Assembly (NCBI GenBank): GCA_947629895.1
Contig: CANRFP010000024.1
Coordinates: 1 to 17,191, forward strand
DNA from: an uncultured Clostridia bacterium
Lineage (GTDB): Bacteria; Bacillota_A; Clostridia; Christensenellales; UBA1242
DNA: 17,191 bases
Direction of reading: 5' to 3'
Shown here: positions 6,368 to 17,191 of the stretch, piece after piece
How positions within the stretch are numbered: position 1 is the stretch's first letter
Layout of the letters: the number at the start of each line of letters is the position of its first letter
Translations under genes and position numbers: made by a program
The notes under the pieces: generated by a model
What the model was told of the DNA's origin: nothing
The model's database searches: none
Seen by the model: the letters and a program-made list of their open reading frames with translations, nothing else

Positions 6368-6399
6368 AAAAAAAGACCGAAAATTCGGTCTCTTTTTTT
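6368..6399. terminator. Bidirectional intrinsic terminator between convergent genes
   Basis: AGACCGAA-AA-TTCGGTCT is a perfect 8-bp hairpin with a run of A on its left (6368-6374) and T on its right (6393-6399), so it works in both directions. On plus it ends transcripts from the small gene through the repeats. On minus it closes the VirB6-like gene, whose stop codon (6400-6398) touches the hairpin. Confidence 0.9.
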
Positions 6400-8977
6400 A
6401 TTTCTTTTTCGAAATTTCATCAAGCTTGTCAAGCATTTTCTTGGTGAGCTTAAGATTCTCCTCTGCAAGTTCTGTTCCTGCTGACATTTTTTCGGTGAGT
6501 TTAAGATTTTGTTCTGCATAGTCTGCTGCACGTCTTTGCTGGTCAACAGGTTTCTTGATGGCATCACGAATGCCAGCCGCTGCTGGATGTGCACTAACAA
6601 CATTATCATTAATCCACTTAAATGGATTTGCATCTTTCCACTTACCTGTGAGATTTTCAACCACGTTGTTCTTCTGTCGTTGATTTTTTGCTTCAATTGT
6701 TGCTTCAATACTTTTTATGGTTTCTTCATAACCTTTTTTGGTTGCTTCAAGGCCCCTTTTGGTTGTGTCAAATGCAACTGCAGTTCTACCATTTTTTTCT
6801 CGTAAATCCTTATATCTAGTATCTTTCTTCTCAAACTCTTTTCTTACTACATCAAAGTCGGTCTTGGACCAGCCTCTATCACCCATACCATGATGACCTC
6901 GGTAGTCCATCACGTCGGCCAAAGCTGCTGCTCTTGCATCATCCAATCCCGCATGTCTTGCTTGCACCTCAAAAGCGTCCCGGTCAAATCTGTTTCCTTT
7001 TTGCCCTTTCACGCTTTCAATTAAATTGTCAATTGTCTCCTGCTCTGCAACTTCACCTAATTGCCCTTCAACTGCGTTTATTTGCCCTTCAGTTTGTTTT
7101 AATCTTTGTTTATCTCTCATAGTTCCTGGGCCATACAAGTAATCTCCAGCTTTTTGTTGCCATTTCGTTTTACCAGTAAAGAAATTTCCCATTGCTTTAA
7201 AGCCATTTCTGTCAACAAGTGATCCGTCAGCACCTTTTTTTCGGAGAATTCCACCATGTGCATTTCCGTTTTTGTCATACCAACCCATTGTAGCAGCTCC
7301 AATACCTTTCTCTGCCAAACGCTCCAAAGGATTGTATCGGGAAACTTTTGTTGCGAATTTTGCGGCACCGGCGGTCATTTTAAGTGCCCCACCAACGGCG
7401 CTGCTCACATCTTTACTCATTTCTTCACCCGTTTTTTGGGCATCCGCAGCACCAATAATTGTGGAAAGTGTGGAAATCACCGCTTTGGTTGTGATTAAGC
7501 CAACAATTATGAACAAAGTGCTTGCCAAAGCATCGGCAATTCCAATGTTAAAGAATTTGATTTGATTTATATACGGCAATATCAACATAACTAAGTTCAT
7601 GCCGACCACTGCGCCATAAGTCATCAAAACTTGTTTTAAGAAGTTTTCTCGCCAATTCTTGGCGGCTTGTCCATTATCCAAAGGCATAAGCCCATATAAT
7701 GGCGGTGCGATAAGGAACAGCACAATGCACATGAAGAACCTTGCCATCAGCCCCAAGATGATGTTTAAGAAAATTGTAAAGCAAACAATAACTGCGCCAA
7801 ATCCGACAACAAAATTAAACTGCCATAGGTCATAGAAATACCACACCAAGCCCACATTAAATTTTGAAAAGGCAATTGTAAGGTAGCTGGTGAAGTTTGA
7901 TAGCCCAGACACAATATCCAGTGAAATAAGATGCTTCCAATCCTCCGCAGTGTACATCGGCGCTATTCTACACCCTTGCGCCGCATGCAAATTGCAAGCA
8001 AAAGCCAAGTCAATCATTTCAGCAAGTTCTTCGTTTCCTTCTGCATCCTTAAACAATTGGAAATCCTCATCATCCGGCCCACCCGTGTAACTGCGGCGCC
8101 CATACCAATTGTTTAGCCTTGCGCGATTTGCGTTGTATGCCGCGGCTTTAAACAAAGTGCCAGAAAAAGTGGCATTTGTTGCGGCAACACTTGCTAGGTT
8201 AACCCCATAAACGGTGTAATAATCATCAAAGACGTCTTGTTCCAGCTCTCCATAAAGCACGCCGCTGCCCACGCCAAAAATATCGTAAAAGACATAGGAT
8301 TTTTCGCCTTTTGTGGTGCTGTTTGGGTTGTCATCAAAATTCCGCGAGGTGTAAGTTGAATATAAATATTTTGAAACGTTGTTTGACCCATACATGCTTA
8401 TAATGGCCGTGTCAGAGGTTGATGTGAATTTGTCTAGCGCTGTTAAAAGTGCTTGTGAAAGATAAAGCCCCAAAACGATTGTGATTGGCACAATTGCCAT
8501 TCCAACAAGCGCTCTGCCGGCTGTGTATACATATTGCATTGGGCCTTTTGCAGCTTTTTCATCATAGTTATAATGCCCCTTTATTATTGCAACCAAAGTT
8601 GCTGCAAACAAGATGATAACTCCAAAAATTACAAATGACCAGAAAACTGTGGACAAAATGGAATATTGCAAATCATATTCATTTATTCCCAAAATGCCCG
8701 TGATGAATTGTGTGACAAGGTCTCCCGTTGTGTTGACTATTTTTCCTGAAACAGGGTCTTTTATATAAACAATGTCAAGCCCCGCAATCTTTCTGAAGAA
8801 AAGTTGTAACACGTCCATGAGGCACACGAGGCTGGCATACATCAAATACATAAATTTTGGAATAAAATCTAAAAGGCCCCCAATGACTTCCATTATTGGG
8901 CCAACAATATTGTCTACTATAAACTGTGCAACTTCGGTTATTATGGAAAAAATTCCACCTTGCATTGCAATATGCAT
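6398..8977 (-). CDS. VirB6/TrbL-like polytopic membrane protein with long cytoplasmic tail
   Basis: 859 residues. Hydrophobic segments lie at about 10-62 (one or two), 105-133, 150-182, 385-425 (two), 448-470 and 480-510. A polar, probably external loop (190-365) carries Cys328 and Cys336. A hydrophilic tail (515-859) is rich in charged predicted coiled coil and ends in a duplicated motif, EQNLKLTEKM / EENLKLTKKM (822-831 and 839-848). The segment FIPKFMYLMYASLVCLMDVLQLFFRKIAGLD and the helical-bundle layout recall VirB6/TrbL channel subunits, including the Mbov_0396-type proteins of Gram-positive integrative elements; this is fold-level recognition only. AGGAGG lies 4 nt before the ATG. It is monocistronic, and no VirB4, VirD4, relaxase or hydrolase lies nearby, so a conjugative role is uncertain. 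Confidence 0.6.
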   Translation of the reverse strand: MHIAMQGGIFSIITEVAQFIVDNIVGPIMEVIGGLLDFIPKFMYLMYASLVCLMDVLQLFFRKIAGLDIVYIKDPVSGKIVNTTGDLVTQFITGILGINEYDLQYSILSTVFWSFVIFGVIILFAATLVAIIKGHYNYDEKAAKGPMQYVYTAGRALVGMAIVPITIVLGLYLSQALLTALDKFTSTSDTAIISMYGSNNVSKYLYSTYTSRNFDDNPNSTTKGEKSYVFYDIFGVGSGVLYGELEQDVFDDYYTVYGVNLASVAATNATFSGTLFKAAAYNANRARLNNWYGRRSYTGGPDDEDFQLFKDAEGNEELAEMIDLAFACNLHAAQGCRIAPMYTAEDWKHLISLDIVSGLSNFTSYLTIAFSKFNVGLVWYFYDLWQFNFVVGFGAVIVCFTIFLNIILGLMARFFMCIVLFLIAPPLYGLMPLDNGQAAKNWRENFLKQVLMTYGAVVGMNLVMLILPYINQIKFFNIGIADALASTLFIIVGLITTKAVISTLSTIIGAADAQKTGEEMSKDVSSAVGGALKMTAGAAKFATKVSRYNPLERLAEKGIGAATMGWYDKNGNAHGGILRKKGADGSLVDRNGFKAMGNFFTGKTKWQQKAGDYLYGPGTMRDKQRLKQTEGQINAVEGQLGEVAEQETIDNLIESVKGQKGNRFDRDAFEVQARHAGLDDARAAALADVMDYRGHHGMGDRGWSKTDFDVVRKEFEKKDTRYKDLREKNGRTAVAFDTTKRGLEATKKGYEETIKSIEATIEAKNQRQKNNVVENLTGKWKDANPFKWINDNVVSAHPAAAGIRDAIKKPVDQQRRAADYAEQNLKLTEKMSAGTELAEENLKLTKKMLDKLDEISKKK

Positions 8978-10954: not shown

Positions 10955-11773
10955 ATGAGAAAATTAAACGTTTTAAGCGATTGGGAAACTGCCAAGTATA
11001 TCATCGACCATAAATGCTCGGTTGCAAGATATGGTGATGGCGAAATGGACATTATGCTTGGAATAAATATTCCTTTCCAAAAAAGCACACACAAATTGAG
11101 AAAAATGTTAAAAGAAGTTAAAACAACCGATAAGTGCTTGTGTTGTGTGAGCGATGTTTTTAATAAAGAGCGCTTCAACAAAAACACAATTGTTGAAAAA
11201 GACTATAAATTTTGGCAAAAAGTAAAATTCTTTACAAAACCTTTCTATTATTTTTATTTTGGCAAAAACGAGGTTTTGGGCGACACATTTGTTTCAAGAT
11301 TTTATTTGCGATTTAAAGACCACTCACAAACGCCAGATTATATAAAATTCTTAAAACAAATCTGGCAAGACAGAAACCTGATTTTTGTGGAAGGCGAAAA
11401 GACAAGACTCGGCGTTGGAAATGATTTCTTTGACAACGCAAAATCTATAAGAAGGATTTTGGGACCAAGCAAAAACGCGTTTGATAAATATGACGAAATT
11501 AAGAAGGCAATTTTGGAGAACGCAAAAAAAGATGACCTTGTTATTTGTGCACTTGGGCCAACCGCCACCGTGCTTGCCTATGATTTGTCAGAGCAAATGC
11601 AAATTTTGGATTTGGGGCATATTGACATTGAATATGAGTGGTTTTTAAGGCACGCAGACAAAAAAATTCCTATTGAAAACAAATATGTGAACGAGTGCGG
11701 AAAAGACGGAAGAAATCCTGGCGAATGCACCGACAAAACCTATCTTTCGCAAATAATTAAAAGAATCGATTGA
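10955..11773 (+). CDS. GT-D fold glycosyltransferase (DUF1792 family)
   Basis: 272 residues. SVARYGDGEMDIMLGINIPFQ (22-42) is the DUF1792 signature; further family features are CALGPTATVLAYDL (198-211) and LDLGHIDIEYEWF (218-230). DUF1792 defines the GT-D fold, known from streptococcal enzymes that extend O-linked glycans on serine-rich repeat proteins, and is also common in capsule loci. The acidic residues of the GDGE motif (25-30) are likely to bind metal or sugar nucleotide. No membrane segment is seen, so the protein is cytosolic, perhaps membrane-associated. AAGGAG lies 5 nt before the ATG. First gene of a three-gene operon; the next gene starts 15 nt after its stop. Donor and acceptor sugars cannot be predicted. 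Confidence 0.88.
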   Translation: MRKLNVLSDWETAKYIIDHKCSVARYGDGEMDIMLGINIPFQKSTHKLRKMLKEVKTTDKCLCCVSDVFNKERFNKNTIVEKDYKFWQKVKFFTKPFYYFYFGKNEVLGDTFVSRFYLRFKDHSQTPDYIKFLKQIWQDRNLIFVEGEKTRLGVGNDFFDNAKSIRRILGPSKNAFDKYDEIKKAILENAKKDDLVICALGPTATVLAYDLSEQMQILDLGHIDIEYEWFLRHADKKIPIENKYVNECGKDGRNPGECTDKTYLSQIIKRID

Positions 11774-11788: not shown

Positions 11789-12763
11789 ATGAAAAAGGGA
11801 TTGATTTCTGTTGTTATCCCCTGCTTTAATTGTGAAAAATATTTAGATGACACCGTTAAATGCTTAAACGAACAAACCTACAAAAATTTTGAGGCAATTT
11901 TTGTTAATGACGGTTCAACTGACGGCACTTTAAACAAACTCAATGACCTTTGCAAAAACAGCAAACAATACAAGGTTTTTTCAAAAGAAAATGGCGGCGC
12001 AAGTTCGGCAAGAAATTTTGGACTTTCAAAAGCAGAAGGCGAATTTGTGCTTTTCTATGACTCCGATGACCTGCTCGCCCCAAATCATTTGGAAACTCTT
12101 GCAAAAGAAATTGCCAATTTTGACTGTTTGGTGACAAGTTCGATTACAATAGATGACAACACCCGCTATGACGATGTAAAAAAAATTGAAACCTTTAATA
12201 AAACAGAGGTGTTTGAAGGTGCTGACGAACTTGTTGCCCAAATGATAATAACCAAAAAATTTATCACAGGTTTTTGGAACAAACTTTTGCGAGCATCAAT
12301 TTTAAAAGAATTTAAAACATATCCAAATGTTTTCACCGAAAATGTTCACTATGCAGAGGACGCACTTTTTGGAGTGGAATATTTTTTACATTGCAAAAAT
12401 GCAAAATGCATAAATTTGAAATCCTATTATTACAGAAGCCATCCCGGAAGTTTATCAAAAGCGTTCAGCAAAAGAATGCTTACAGTGACCAACTCGTTTG
12501 ACAAATACATTGAAATTTGTGAGGGCCGCCCACTTGCGCTTCAATATGTAAAAAGTTTTATATGCATGCTTTGTATCGAATTTTTGTTTAGAATAAGATT
12601 TAATAAATTTTACGACAAAAAAACAGTGGATTTTTTCTTCTCAACATTAAAAAAATATAAAAAAGACCTAAGAAAATGCAAAAAAGCGGCTTTTTATTAC
12701 AGATTTTTAACGCCTTGCACCATTTGCCTGTTGAAATTGCTTTTTGTGGGAAAATTAAAATAG
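11789..12763 (+). CDS. Family 2 glycosyltransferase (GT-A fold)
   Basis: 324 residues. The N-terminal catalytic half is typical GT2: ISVVIPCFN (6-14), FVNDGSTDGT (38-47) for the nucleotide, ENGGASSARNFGL (67-79), and the metal-binding DSD (91-93, in FYDSDDLL). The C-terminal half is less conserved, basic, and ends in a hydrophobic stretch (FLTPCTICLLKLLFVGKLK) that could hold it at the membrane. GGAGG lies 6 nt before the ATG. Its first 100 residues are closely similar to those of the two GT2 proteins on the minus strand, especially the one at 15005-15949 (same MKKGLIS start), so the three are probably paralogues. Sugar specificity is not readable. Confidence 0.93.
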   Translation: MKKGLISVVIPCFNCEKYLDDTVKCLNEQTYKNFEAIFVNDGSTDGTLNKLNDLCKNSKQYKVFSKENGGASSARNFGLSKAEGEFVLFYDSDDLLAPNHLETLAKEIANFDCLVTSSITIDDNTRYDDVKKIETFNKTEVFEGADELVAQMIITKKFITGFWNKLLRASILKEFKTYPNVFTENVHYAEDALFGVEYFLHCKNAKCINLKSYYYRSHPGSLSKAFSKRMLTVTNSFDKYIEICEGRPLALQYVKSFICMLCIEFLFRIRFNKFYDKKTVDFFFSTLKKYKKDLRKCKKAAFYYRFLTPCTICLLKLLFVGKLK

Positions 12764-12771
12764 GTGATTAG

Positions 12772-14043
12772 ATGGATAAAGTCAAAAAAAAATTATGCCA
12801 TTTGAAAAAACACTTTGATTTTAAAGAAAGTGAACTTGAAGAAATCCGCAAAATGTATTTGGGGCAACCTTTCAACCGTGAAGATGAAGGCTATTTGAAA
12901 TTGTTGGAAAAATCGAAGGCGTTGTGTGATAAATACAATTCTGTTTGCCAAAAAGAACTTGCGAAAAAAAGAAAATCCAAACATTGCAAAACCTCTTTGA
13001 TTGCCTACATCTATTTCTATTTTAAAAAATTGCACCTTTTAAAGTTGCTTTTTCCAATTCATGGTTTTATTTTGTATGCAGAAAGCGGAATTGATGCAGT
13101 GATTGGCCTTGTGGACTTGAAAGGTTATGGGTTTATAAATCAAAATGTTCGCTTCACGCCCAACTCCCTAGTGGATGTTAAAAAAGGAAATGTTTTTGCA
13201 CTTGACATTACTGTTGGCGCAACCACCCAATCTGCCGCTCTAAACAAAATCACAATACAAAAAAATTGTTGGATTTGTGCCGGCGTTTGTGTTTGTCCAA
13301 AAACCGATATTGAAATTGGGCAAGAAAGTGTGCTTGGCGCAGGTGCTTTTGTTGAAACCTCACTTCCTGCCAATTCTTTGGCTGTTGGAAGGCCAGCAAA
13401 AAGAATAAAAGATGTGAATGAAAGCAAAAATTCAAACATTTCTTCCCCTTTTTCCGCCGAACAGAAAAAATTTATTATGGAACACATAAAAAAGCACAAC
13501 TTTGGCAAGGTTTGTCCGGAATTTGAAAAAGCAATAAGCGGCCAAGTTTTCAATTCCATGGACAGAAAATTTTCTTATCTTTTGAGGTTAACCCGCTGCC
13601 TTTGTGATGAACTTAATTTTGAAGAAATCACACAAGCACGAAGAGAGGAAATTTTGGATATTCTCTTTGCAAGTCACGGAAAAAATCTTAAAGTTGGAAA
13701 AAATCTTAAAGTGGACTGTCTTGGCACAATTTTAATTGGCAACAATGTGACAATTGGCAACAATGTGTCAATGGGTGGGAACATAATTTTAGAGGACAAC
13801 GTGAAAATTGATGACAACTGCATTCTTTTTGCCTCTGGTCACAGCACGAAAGCCAAAGAGCGCACAATGAAATTTTCCATAAAGAAAGGTTTTTATGAAG
13901 ACACCTTTTACTCCTCAATTTTGGTCAAAAGAAATTGCAAAATAAGAAAAAACACTGTTGTTGTTCCAAACAGTGTTGTAAATATCAGCACGCCCGAAAA
14001 TTCGCTTTATGTAAAAGACAAAGTGATTATTTCAAACACTTAA
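12772..14043 (+). CDS. Tandem left-handed beta-helix acyltransferase (two fused hexapeptide modules)
   Basis: 423 residues that split into two acetyltransferase-like halves. Half 1 (about 1-218) has a helical lead like the maltose-acetyltransferase N-domain (ESELEEIRKMYLGQPFNRED...LCDKYNS), then hexapeptide strands and a classic end, VLGAGAFVETSLPANSLAVGRPAKRIK, but no obvious catalytic His. Half 2 (about 228-423) repeats the layout: a helical lead, the hexapeptide run TILIGNNVTIGNNVSMGGNIILEDNVKI, then FASGHS with His357 as the probable catalytic base, but a degenerate end (SLYVKDKVI). The family acetylates sugars or nucleotide sugars from acetyl-CoA; here it probably decorates the glycan made by its neighbours. 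A weak AGGTGA overlapping the preceding stop codon serves the ATG. Its last 17 bp overlap the convergent GT2 gene. Confidence 0.85.
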   Translation: MDKVKKKLCHLKKHFDFKESELEEIRKMYLGQPFNREDEGYLKLLEKSKALCDKYNSVCQKELAKKRKSKHCKTSLIAYIYFYFKKLHLLKLLFPIHGFILYAESGIDAVIGLVDLKGYGFINQNVRFTPNSLVDVKKGNVFALDITVGATTQSAALNKITIQKNCWICAGVCVCPKTDIEIGQESVLGAGAFVETSLPANSLAVGRPAKRIKDVNESKNSNISSPFSAEQKKFIMEHIKKHNFGKVCPEFEKAISGQVFNSMDRKFSYLLRLTRCLCDELNFEEITQARREEILDILFASHGKNLKVGKNLKVDCLGTILIGNNVTIGNNVSMGGNIILEDNVKIDDNCILFASGHSTKAKERTMKFSIKKGFYEDTFYSSILVKRNCKIRKNTVVVPNSVVNISTPENSLYVKDKVIISNT

Positions 14044-14995
14044 AATATCTCATTTTCACAAAAGGTTTAACGGCGGGAATGCCAAATCTCAAATACCAAG
14101 CATACAACTTACCTTTTCTAACATATTTGCAATTTGCGCAGTAATCAAGGCACAATTTTTTAATTTTTTCTTTGTCCCTAAAATCACTGTGCCAAATTTT
14201 CAACAGCATTTCCAAACTTGAAATTGCCCGTTGCCCTTTGATGTAGTTTTTTGCCTGTTTGTAGATGTTTTCGTTCAAGCCATCGGCATAATCAAGCCCG
14301 TTAAACACAGAAAGTTTGTTCTCATTAAACTTACTTCTAACCCCACTCCCCTTTCTTCTTTTGTAATAATAAAGTTTGTCGTCAATTATCAAAATGTTGT
14401 CAGCTTTTTCAAGATATTTTGTGTTAAATTCAATGTCCTCGCCATAAGAGCTTTTTTCGTTCATAACTCTTGGAAAGTTTGCAACCTGCTTTATGATGTC
14501 CATCTTAAACATTTTGTTCCAAAGCGTGTAGCCAAGATTTCCAGAATACAGCAAAGACATGATTTTGTCTTTGTCACTTTCCATCTGCTTTTTTTTGCCC
14601 TGTTTAACCTTAATTTTTTCATACTTAAAGTTTTCTTTAACCCAAACCGAGCCAAAAACCAAACAATCGGCTTTGCCTTTTTGTTCGTTCAGCACTTCCA
14701 TAAGGTTTGGAGCAAGCAAATCGTCGTCATCGGCAAAATAGACAAATTTTCCATTTGTTTTTGCTAAGCCCGCATTTCTTGCCGAACTAACACCCCCATT
14801 TTTTTTATCAACAAAAAAACGGTTTTCCCCCTTCTTGCAAAACTCTTTAATCACGTCCAAAGTTTTGTCGGTTGAGCCATCATTGACAAAAATCACTTCA
14901 AAATTTTTATAAGTTTGATTTTCCAAACTCTTGAAGCAATCTGCAAGCCTGTTTTGGGCGTTATAGCATGGTATGATAACTGAAATGTCTGGCAT
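14027..14995 (-). CDS. Family 2 glycosyltransferase (GT-A fold)
   Basis: 322 residues with GT2 motifs ISVIIPCYN (4-12), FVNDGSTDKT (36-45), KNGGVSSARNAGL (65-77) and the acidic metal site ADDDDLL (88-94). GEDIEFNTKYL in the second half is the acceptor-side helix typical of these enzymes. The C-terminus is basic and aromatic, suggesting loose membrane contact. AAGGAG lies 5 nt before the ATG and overlaps the stop codon of the upstream GT2, so the two are coupled. The 3' end overlaps the acetyltransferase gene by 17 bp in convergent orientation, with no terminator between them. Substrate unknown. Confidence 0.93.
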   Translation of the reverse strand: MPDISVIIPCYNAQNRLADCFKSLENQTYKNFEVIFVNDGSTDKTLDVIKEFCKKGENRFFVDKKNGGVSSARNAGLAKTNGKFVYFADDDDLLAPNLMEVLNEQKGKADCLVFGSVWVKENFKYEKIKVKQGKKKQMESDKDKIMSLLYSGNLGYTLWNKMFKMDIIKQVANFPRVMNEKSSYGEDIEFNTKYLEKADNILIIDDKLYYYKRRKGSGVRSKFNENKLSVFNGLDYADGLNENIYKQAKNYIKGQRAISSLEMLLKIWHSDFRDKEKIKKLCLDYCANCKYVRKGKLYAWYLRFGIPAVKPFVKMRYFKCLK

Positions 14996-15004
14996 AAAAA
15001 CTCC

Positions 15005-15949
15005 TTAAAAAAGCCTTATTTTGTAATAGAGATAAAGTGTAAACAAAATTGGATGGCAAGTTTGCCAAATGGTTTTTTTGAAATCTTTAAACAGCTTTTT
15101 TATTGTTTGCTTGTCCTTAAATTTGTCGCGAATCATCTCGTTGAAATACATCAAATATCTGTCAAACTTTCTTAAAACCACAGTGTGTTTCACTGATTTC
15201 AAATCCCCCACACACAATTCAATGGCGTTGTCATAACTTTGAAAGGTGCTAAGTTTTTTTGTTGAAAATTCTTTGTGCATGGCGCTGCTGTTGCGCTGTC
15301 TGTATAGATATAACTTGTCCTGCGTTAAGGCAACCTTGTTGCAATTTGCCAAATACTTAAAGTTGAAATCAACATCCTCGCCATAGTCAATGCTGGTTTG
15401 AAAAACATTTGGAAAGCCTGCAATTTTTTGCATGATGTCTTTCCTATACAAATTTGACCAAACAGCGTGCCCAAATTTTTTATAATTTATAAACAATTTC
15501 AAAATTTTTGTTCTATCACAAAAAACTTCTTCTTTTTTCGTTTCTTCATAATGTATGTTGTCAAAATGAAATTCCTCAGAAACCAATTCATATTTGCAAA
15601 TAGAACAATCCGCCTCAGTTTTCAGCAACAAATCATGCAATTTTTCAAGCAAATTAGGCTTCATAATGTCGTCCGCATCAAGAAAATACAAAAACTCCCC
15701 CTGCGAAGAGGCAATTCCCCTGTTTCTGGCCTCGCTAACGCCCGAATTTTTTTGGTTTATAATTTTGAAATTTTGCTTATTCTCACAAAATTTCGTCAGT
15801 TTTTCCAAAGTGTCATCTTTTGAGCCGTCATTCACGAAAATAACTTCAATGCTTTTATAAGTCTGATTTTCCAAGCCTTTGAAACAATCATCCAACCACG
15901 CAGACACGTTATAGCAAGGCACAATAATTGAAATCAGACCCTTTTTCAT
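15005..15949 (-). CDS. Family 2 glycosyltransferase (GT-A fold)
   Basis: 314 residues. Motifs: ISIIVPCYN (6-14), FVNDGSKDDT (38-47), KNSGVSEARNRGI (67-79), DAD (91-93, in FLDADDI) and YGEDVDFNFKYL in the second half. The opening MKKGLISIIVPC is nearly the same as that of the plus-strand GT2 at 11789. The ATG at 15949 is preferred, because AAGGAG (15960-15955) lies 5 nt upstream; the earlier in-frame ATG (15952) is only 2 nt from it and the GTG (15955) overlaps it. First gene of a two-gene minus operon. It begins 39 nt after tRNA-Arg with no terminator hairpin between, so it may be read through from the tRNA promoter. A weak extended -10 (TGTTATTCT, 15975-15967) could give a local start. Confidence 0.92.
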   Translation of the reverse strand: MKKGLISIIVPCYNVSAWLDDCFKGLENQTYKSIEVIFVNDGSKDDTLEKLTKFCENKQNFKIINQKNSGVSEARNRGIASSQGEFLYFLDADDIMKPNLLEKLHDLLLKTEADCSICKYELVSEEFHFDNIHYEETKKEEVFCDRTKILKLFINYKKFGHAVWSNLYRKDIMQKIAGFPNVFQTSIDYGEDVDFNFKYLANCNKVALTQDKLYLYRQRNSSAMHKEFSTKKLSTFQSYDNAIELCVGDLKSVKHTVVLRKFDRYLMYFNEMIRDKFKDKQTIKKLFKDFKKTIWQTCHPILFTLYLYYKIRLF

Positions 15950-15988
15950 CATCACTCCTTAATGAGAGAATAACACAAAAATTTTGTT

Positions 15989-16065
15989 TGGTGCACTCGT
16001 GGGGATTCGAACCCAAGACCTTTCGTTCCGTAGACGAACGCTCTATCCAGCTGAGCTACGAGTGC
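15989..16065 (-). tRNA. tRNA-Arg (ACG anticodon)
   Basis: Complete 77-nt cloverleaf on the minus strand. The acceptor GCACTCG pairs perfectly with CGAGTGC, the D-arm is AGCTCAGCTGGATAGAGC, the anticodon stem TTCGT/ACGAA encloses CTACGGA (anticodon ACG, reading CGN codons after inosine modification), and the T-loop is TTCGAAT. The discriminator A and an encoded CCA follow. Upstream lies a promoter with a 58-nt leader; downstream, 39 nt away, the GT2 operon starts. Confidence 0.95.
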
Positions 16066-16288: not shown

Positions 16289-16316
16289 TTGAAAACATCC
16301 TTGTTTGTTTTATAAT
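16289..16316 (+). promoter_or_regulatory. Promoter of the PP-loop gene
   Basis: TTGAAA (16289-16294), 16 nt, then a perfect TATAAT (16311-16316). The start would be near 16323, giving a leader of about 105 nt, far longer than the 10-20 nt leaders of other genes here. Confidence 0.7.
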
Positions 16317-16428
16317 TATTTAAGTCAAAAAGATAAAACCCAAATTGTGTGATTTAGCAAAACCGATTGAGTTCTTTCTTTAAACTTGTGTTTTGGCAAA
16401 CTTTGCGTTTGCTTAATTGGAGTGAATT

Positions 16429-17191
16429 ATGGAAATCATTTTAAACAAACCAAATCTGGTCATGGGGGGGGGATTTTGTCACCTGGTGTGTGAAGTTGAA
16501 ACTCAATCTTCAATCTATCCCCTATATTTGGAATTTGAGCAGAAATGGGCAAAATATGTGAGCTTTGAAGTGCTTGACAGCCAAGTTGTTGCACTTTTGC
16601 TTTATGCTATGGAGCATAATTTGAATATTGTTTGCAAAGGAAAAATAAGCGAGCGCTTACATAGGCAGTTGACGGAATATCTTATTCCTGCCATTTCAAA
16701 AAATTTGAAAAAATATCATCCAATTTCCATTTCGTGTGAAGGCTTTTCAAATGAAAATTTTGGCGGTAAAGTTGCCGGCACTGGGCTTTCTTGTGGCGTT
16801 GATTCTTTTTACACCATTTTAAAAAACCAAAACCATTCAAAAGAAAGCGGACTGAATGTGCAGTGTTTGGGGTTATTTAATGCTGGAGCTTTTGGTCAAG
16901 AAGATGCAGAAGAAAATAAGAAAAAGTTTTGGCAGCGCGCCAAAGATTGCAAGGTTGTTGCAGACAAACTTGGCTGTGATTTTTTGGCGGTGGATTCCAA
17001 CATGAACAAATTTTTACATCAAGACCATGAAGCAACGCACGTGTTTAGGACTTTAAGTGTGCCACTTGCTTTTCAAAAGTTGTTTAAACTGTATTACTTT
17101 TCATCAACTTTTGAATACAAAATGTTTAGATTCACCGATTTTGACCCATCTTATTATGACATTTTAACAATGCCAAACATCTCAACAGAAT
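16429..17191 (+). CDS. PP-loop ATP pyrophosphatase-like protein, surface-glycan type (partial, C-terminus beyond window)
   Basis: 254 codons are open to the window edge. SCGVDS (121-126, in VAGTGLSCGVDSFYT) is a PP-loop, the ATP-binding motif of enzymes that adenylate a substrate (NAD synthetase, QueC, asparagine synthetase and tRNA-thiolation families). The following QRAKDCKVVADKLGCDFLAVDSN fits the second strand-helix of that fold. The N-terminal domain (MEIILNKPNL...LLLYAMEHNLNIVCKGKISERL) matches, from memory, proteins found in capsule or lipopolysaccharide clusters of gut bacteria, where their reaction is unknown. ATG 16429 has GGAG 6 nt upstream. Codons 12-15 (MGGG) are encoded by a nine-G run at 16464-16472; the frame is intact through it. 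It probably opens a further plus-strand glycan operon. Confidence 0.75.
   Translation, partial: MEIILNKPNLVMGGGFCHLVCEVETQSSIYPLYLEFEQKWAKYVSFEVLDSQVVALLLYAMEHNLNIVCKGKISERLHRQLTEYLIPAISKNLKKYHPISISCEGFSNENFGGKVAGTGLSCGVDSFYTILKNQNHSKESGLNVQCLGLFNAGAFGQEDAEENKKKFWQRAKDCKVVADKLGCDFLAVDSNMNKFLHQDHEATHVFRTLSVPLAFQKLFKLYYFSSTFEYKMFRFTDFDPSYYDILTMPNISTE
16464..16472 (+). repeat. G9 homopolymer in the 5' coding region of the PP-loop gene
   Basis: Nine consecutive G in an A/T-rich genome, starting with the G of an in-frame ATG (codon 12). At this length the reading frame is open. Gain or loss of one G would shift the frame near the start of the gene. I saw no other G or C run of this length in the window. 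Confidence 0.9.

Follow-up and report, generated by a model that had tools for sequence, protein, structure and literature searches.

Does the single long run of G near the start of a QueC-like gene act as a switch and, if so, what would it switch? The run lies in a stretch of 17,191 nucleotides (contig CANRFP010000024.1 of assembly GCA_947629895.1, forward strand), hereafter the window, from an uncultured and probably gut-dwelling bacterium of the Clostridia. Based on sequence comparisons, we consider it very probable that this tract of nine G (G9) is a slipped-strand contingency (phase-variation) switch of the QueC-like gene, as proposed in an earlier note on the same DNA.

The tract occupies exactly positions 16464..16472 (+) and is composed of the G of Met12 followed by GGG GGG GG(A), i.e. 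codons 12-15, where the earlier note had located it. No other G run in the window is longer than four bases (2095, 396, 46 and 8 runs of one, two, three and four G, respectively, plus the one run of nine), and the longest C run has five bases, in line with the claim that the tract is the only long run of either kind. The GC content of the window is 0.379. Given the window's own base-to-base frequencies, runs of at least nine bases are expected 0.0017 times for G, 0.02 times for C, 6.1 times for A and 4.9 times for T, which bears out the improbability that had been ascribed to the tract. The gene (16429..17191, +), which encodes a QatC/QueC-like PP-loop ATPase with an SCGVDSF motif, is cut by the window end; from the ATG at 16429, its reading frame stays open over 254 codons up to that end. 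A relative, P0001, is 96% identical over these 254 residues and has 374 residues in all; with a length of about 374 residues taken from it, the tract is found approximately 3-4% into the protein, within the first 5% or so that had been stated.

When the tract length was changed in silico, the frame was open with 6, 9 or 12 G, the copy in the window being 'on', as the note had read it. At lengths of 7, 8, 10 and 11 G, a stop follows after 20, 43, 21 and 44 residues, respectively, and a one-base slip is thus predicted, from the sequence only, to abolish the product. Two features of contingency loci are therefore present: a reading frame that contains a homopolymer longer than expected by chance, and a product that would be lost upon a change of one unit.

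A third feature, variable length at one site (G9, G8, G8 and G11), was found in genus-level relatives of the host, not in its own species. The window was placed in their genus-level group by UvrC alone, which is 71% identical to that of genome G195, 70% to that of G184 and 64-66% to those of five more genomes of the group (112 genomes of 0.6-1.5 Mb). Among the best 120 of 7998 UvrC matches, the only genus-named relative was Candidatus Caccovivens sp. (P0233, 76%), and a portion of PMC8035907 places Caccovivens (UBA11517) in the order Christensenellales, family UBA1242. A homologue of the tract gene is present in 8 of the 112 genomes. At the hairpin that carries the tract in the window, G195 exhibits G9, in frame, in a protein of 400 residues; G708 and G710 (G8 each) and G286 (G11) are out of frame there, these four copies being about 30% identical to P0001. 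Downstream of the tract, 1100 bp of G708 are 93% identical to G195, and the nearest 125 bp or so upstream look identical by eye. A distant relative, G297, carries G10, out of frame, at what appears by eye to be a later hairpin.

Could such out-of-frame copies be sequencing or assembly artefacts, or decaying pseudogenes? Homopolymers are error-prone, many of the genomes are drafts, and some tract-less matches do contain in-frame stops (one TAA in G278; one TGA and one TAA in a weak G289 match). An error of one base, however, cannot create runs of G9-G14, the runs are concentrated in these genes and in one strand sense, and long frames persist downstream of them, so that we give this explanation almost no weight. 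The downstream frames, with 388-405 codons in the out-of-frame copies L050, L051, L053, L055 and L057-L060, suggest that these copies are maintained. They would also suit programmed transcriptional or ribosomal slippage, which gives a fixed fraction of product whatever the length in the DNA; as some close relatives have in-frame and others out-of-frame lengths, and as the sites differ between lineages, such slippage appears very improbable.

Tracts recur across the gene family. A sense run of at least seven G was observed in 26 of 98 distinct homologous genes, and a sense run of at least seven C in none of the 101 genes counted before duplicate removal. L061 and L255 had been dropped as duplicates of L035 and L245, L083 had been merged with the near-identical L081, and the 26 do not include the distant relative L088 (G10, out of frame). 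According to our reading, seven of these tracts are in frame (L046, L052, L054, L063, L071, L245 and L282) and 19 are out of frame, or 8 in frame out of 27 with the window added; 7 out of 26 is close to the third that would be expected if lengths drift. Runs of at least eight G numbered 26 in 118,331 bp of genes versus 13 in 691,839 bp of flanking DNA (p = 2.2e-13 in a binomial test that ignores relatedness). By set, there were 5 such runs inside versus 10 outside the genes for the 36 loci that had been identified purely by homology (p = 3.7e-3), 12 versus 2 for the handles plus the genus of G002 (p = 8.3e-5), and 3 versus 0 for the window's family and genus (p = 0.025). Permutation of gene-sized intervals over the 36 loci set the 5 loci with a run of at least seven against a mean of 1.35 (5 reached in 9 of 2000 permutations), and the 4 loci with a run of at least eight against a mean of 0.94 (18 of 2000).

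The position of the tract within the protein differs between lineages. In the genus of G002 (L035, Fretibacterium sp.; L033, Synergistaceae), matches occur in 10 of 43 genomes, and 15 of 18 distinct copies have G8-G14, with none in L049, L056 and L062. In that genus, G9 matches were also seen in every one of the 43 genomes, and G032 alone had 301 of them, counted with overlaps. The family of G004 (Selenomonadaceae) has matches in 31 of 189 genomes, some of them weak; tracts lie at the window's hairpin in L274, L282 and L291 and just ahead of the PP-loop in L024, L028 and L288. The family of Eubacterium plexicaudatum, presumably Lachnospiraceae, has matches in 10 of 299 genomes, including an in-frame G9 ahead of the PP-loop (L245) and a G8 past it (L032). 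Roughly mapped onto P0001, tracts fall at about residues 12-15, 20-31, 111-114 and 138, all of which are compatible with loops of the predicted model or with positions next to them. For the Synergistaceae site, the in-frame copies fall on residues 26, 27 and 31, within the turn 25-28 or next to it; eight out-of-frame copies are placed at residues 20-23, within a strand, because their alignments begin past the tract. These differing positions suggest that the tracts probably arose independently at least four times. Three proteins (P0011, P0030 and P0026) start at MGG and, with only protein sequence at hand, were not counted.

The window's tract is positioned where the predicted fold turns from one beta strand into the next (strands 9-13 and 16-24 of the P0001 model). 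This raises a further alternative, namely a glycine turn that is stable and structurally tolerated, is simply written in GGG codons and does not switch. P0001, as far as its protein sequence tells, retains Gly-Gly-Gly at this site, and homologues without any run would fit equally well. The homologue alignment that had been called for revealed, however, that most of the other proteins among the 30 aligned lack three glycines there. Moreover, stable glycine codons cannot explain G7-G14 runs that recur here and elsewhere mostly out of frame, and we regard this alternative as improbable.

Several observations weigh against a switch. Runs of at least seven G are lacking in 72 of the 98 homologues, and three of the eight homologues from the window's group (G285, G688 and G278) have no run. 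The overall p value is inflated by kinship, with 12 of the 26 runs coming from the handles plus the genus of G002; counts of runs of at least eight were 2 inside versus 0 outside in the family of G006 (p = 0.16) and 4 versus 1 in the family of G004 (p = 0.069), and the permutation for runs of at least nine is borderline (3 loci versus a mean of 0.85; 92 of 2000). Upstream of the tract, G195 and G708 are 69% identical over 400 bp, ungapped. The evidence consists of assembled sequences of relatives, largely draft metagenome assemblies in which a homopolymer length can be off by one. Loss of MutS as a cause of the tracts was rejected because 40 of 41 group genomes carry a MutS-family gene (PF00488). 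The candidate switch nonetheless has strong comparative support from in-frame and out-of-frame lengths at one site, from recurrent tracts in the family and from a tract-rich genus-level group.

In that group, at least one G9 on either strand was found in 93 of the 112 genomes. We fetched 98 distinct tracts around listed places, not all places, excluding those 60 bp or less from a locus end. Nearly half of them (47) lie in a TTGACA-tract-TATAAT-like spacer with at most three mismatches, versus 215 of 1960 random places, with G295 alone contributing 17 of the 47; a lipoprotein signal precedes 13 tracts, and 38 belong to neither class. With at most two mismatches, 39 promoter-spacer tracts were retained, 31 of which had a downstream open reading frame (ORF), and a hydrophobic N-terminus was observed in 26 of these 31 ORFs versus 12 of 27 control ORFs (p = 0.0023). 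Judging from their sequences, promoter-spacer tracts such as those of L149, L153, L112, L126 and L156 are candidates for transcriptional phase variation. In large lipoproteins (L120, L121, L127, L134, L137, L161, L185 and L187-L190), runs of G9-G12 were seen a few codons after the lipobox cysteine. Four near-identical lipoprotein starts in G687 carry G9, G9, G10 and G10, and therefore cannot all share one frame. ON/OFF labels derived from the longest open frames are unreliable for single tracts and were not used in the counts.

As for what would be switched, the product of the tract gene is, according to structure prediction, a PP-loop ATPase whose fold resembles those of QatC and QueC, and neither a glycosyltransferase nor any other recognised glycan enzyme. 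The QueC fold was matched in residues 114-314, behind an extra N-terminal domain of about 110 residues, and the QatC fold over the whole length, including the N-terminal extension before the QueC core. Only the fold search was informative: sequence comparison with solved structures gave four matches, none convincing (best E = 0.017). PF06508 (QueC) had no match in the window gene, P0001, P0093 or L199's copy, and L211's copy scored 13.1 bits, below the cut-off of 22. Among 104 full-length proteins, the PP-loop S[GC]G[VIL]DS is present in 97 and the strict SGGxDS in 11. A C(x)5-12CxxCxxC motif was found in 91 of the 104, mostly with a spacing of 6 (54 proteins) or 11 (24 proteins); the spacing of 8 that defines the QueC zinc motif C(x)8CxxCxxC occurs in one, and the QueC motifs YxQxHxxE, VPxRN and YPDC in none. 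The family thus resembles QueC (PF06508), as described in part of PMC13329287, in its PP-loop S[GC]GVDS, a C-Cxx-C-xx-C type motif and the core fold, but differs in its N-terminal domain, its polysaccharide neighbours and the lack of all three QueC substrate motifs. The whole-length fold, PP-loop and N-terminal extension are common to QatC of qatABCD (sections of PMC13279940), from which it differs in sequence (11% identity) and, as far as noticed, in its neighbours; the zinc motif given for QatC in the same part of PMC13329287 is C(x)19CGxCxxRR.

The tract might switch phage defence instead of a glycan, with a protein that acts like QatC or Cap9 and modifies a partner protein. The shared fold aside, the PADLOC QatC model had no match in 10 members, which gave weak DpdC and PDC-M46A matches instead, and none of qatA, qatB and qatD was noticed, by eye and with no profile search made, next to the gene in the window or in the listed neighbourhoods. 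Capsule genes are among the neighbours, and the substrate of QatC itself is unsettled in the sections of PMC13279940 available. Nor do the substrate clues favour it. PTPS/QueD had no match in any of the eight window-group genomes carrying the homologue. Some match over the cut-off of the QueC profile was found in all 20 genomes tested; the best in these eight had E values of 9.8e-8 to 2.0e-5, in ORFs of 387-412 codons, and were taken for other PP-loop enzymes, versus 1e-56 or better in G009 and G1101. PTPS was present in all nine Synergistaceae tested, where QueC-profile matches were weak too. The absence of PTPS/QueD and the weak QueC matches weaken the case for a 7-deazaguanine substrate, which is, drafts permitting, probably not made in the window's group, and is thus unlikely there on these sequence data. 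Overall, we find a defence switch unlikely. Phage origin was considered separately and is not indicated, because none of 18 pattern-matching viral stretches encodes a relative. In P0097, a phage-type integrase is fused to a member of the QueC-like family, perhaps through chimeric assembly or as a mobile fusion.

The description of the gene as 'surface-glycan-type' holds for its setting, here and in many relatives, and would be a presumption for the enzyme. The window encodes a GT-D fold glycosyltransferase (10955..11773, +; PF08759, 9.3e-76), three family 2 glycosyltransferases (11789..12763, +, PF00535, 3.6e-34; 14027..14995, -, 5.8e-34; 15005..15955, -, 5.5e-36) and a hexapeptide-repeat acyltransferase-like protein (12772..14043, +; PF00132, 2.2e-9; PF12464, 1.5e-8). 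A tRNA-Arg(acg) gene (15989..16065, -) lies between the glycosyltransferases and the switch gene, which is preceded by a ribosome-binding-site-like GGAG (16419..16422, +, direct sequence reading) and a promoter-like TTGAAA-16-TATAAT (16289..16316, +) with 11 of 12 consensus matches; the promoter call is a consensus match only, with five such sites in the region versus 1.8 expected in shuffles. Elsewhere in the window (6398-8977, -), an 859-residue protein matches the conjugal transfer family MMCAP2_0566 (103.9 bits; cut-off 90).

Among 114 ORFs at most two genes away from the 36 homologues, we found Polysacc_synt (12), PS_pyruv_trans (7), FrhB/FdhB (7), PGA_cap (5), family 2 glycosyltransferases (4) and others. 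More distant ORFs of the same loci (the first 114 of 129; ORFs of at least 2000 bp excluded from both sets) were likewise rich in glycan genes, and because of this the tallies describe a setting, not a contrast. As far as gene content tells, these are for the most part polysaccharide loci. In the genus-level group of the window, copies lie instead, by eye, near ribosomal-protein, transporter and lipoprotein genes, surroundings that do not speak for a glycan role. At L210:3870-8935, a QueC-like gene is lined up with genes for a TPP-dependent enzyme, an SDR and an epimerase, and runs of G11, G7 and G10 are interspersed.

In the switch we propose, replication slippage in the G run would shift its length by one; 9 G (or 6 or 12) would keep the gene in frame (ON), and 8 or 10 G would truncate the product at 43 or 21 residues (OFF), so that cells that have the enzyme and cells that lack it would coexist in one population. 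Both slippage in this organism and a phenotype upon loss of the protein are inferred. The target is likely to be the cell surface, with an ATP-dependent enzyme modifying a building block of surface polysaccharide; fold and neighbours suggest that the reaction is perhaps a QueC-like carboxylate activation on a surface sugar. A wider proposal, more doubtful and put forward tentatively, is that in gut bacteria from several phyla a QueC-derived ligase has become part of surface-polysaccharide biosynthesis. There it would conditionally modify a glycan carboxylate (e.g. to an amide), and it would have come repeatedly and independently under poly-G control at different loops as a convergent antigen or phage-receptor switch; the host here would belong to a genus-level group whose poly-G phasome is large and apparently undescribed.

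The best-known examples of poly-G phase variation come from a few Gram-negative pathogens; in Campylobacter, its targets include glycan genes. The contingency loci of that genus, as presented in part of PMC6321876, likewise have a poly-G/C run within a reading frame, with one-base ON/OFF switching; our case differs in phylum, in its QueC-like PP-loop ATPase gene and in the MutS-family gene of the related genomes. The poly-G promoter tract of Neisseria meningitidis porA (an excerpt of PMC3639595) resembles the TTGACA-tract-TATAAT spacers of the group, unlike the window's tract, which is coding. Frame-transition clusters have been described in general (portions of PMC3711429). Among the listed titles and abstract starts of open papers (up to 20 per search), we found no account of poly-G switching of this gene family or these hosts, and 'phase variation' occurs 0 times in the available portion of PMC8035907 on Caccovivens. 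The mechanism is thus a classical one, in a gene family and in hosts for which no report was found.

If the tract is a switch, tract lengths in reads would provide a direct test of it, and such genes would be split or missed by gene callers in assembled metagenomes. Poly-G switching would then occur in uncultured Clostridia, Synergistaceae and Selenomonadaceae, repeatedly aimed at one uncharacterised enzyme family, which would single out the enzyme as a surface determinant on which phages or host immunity exert selection.
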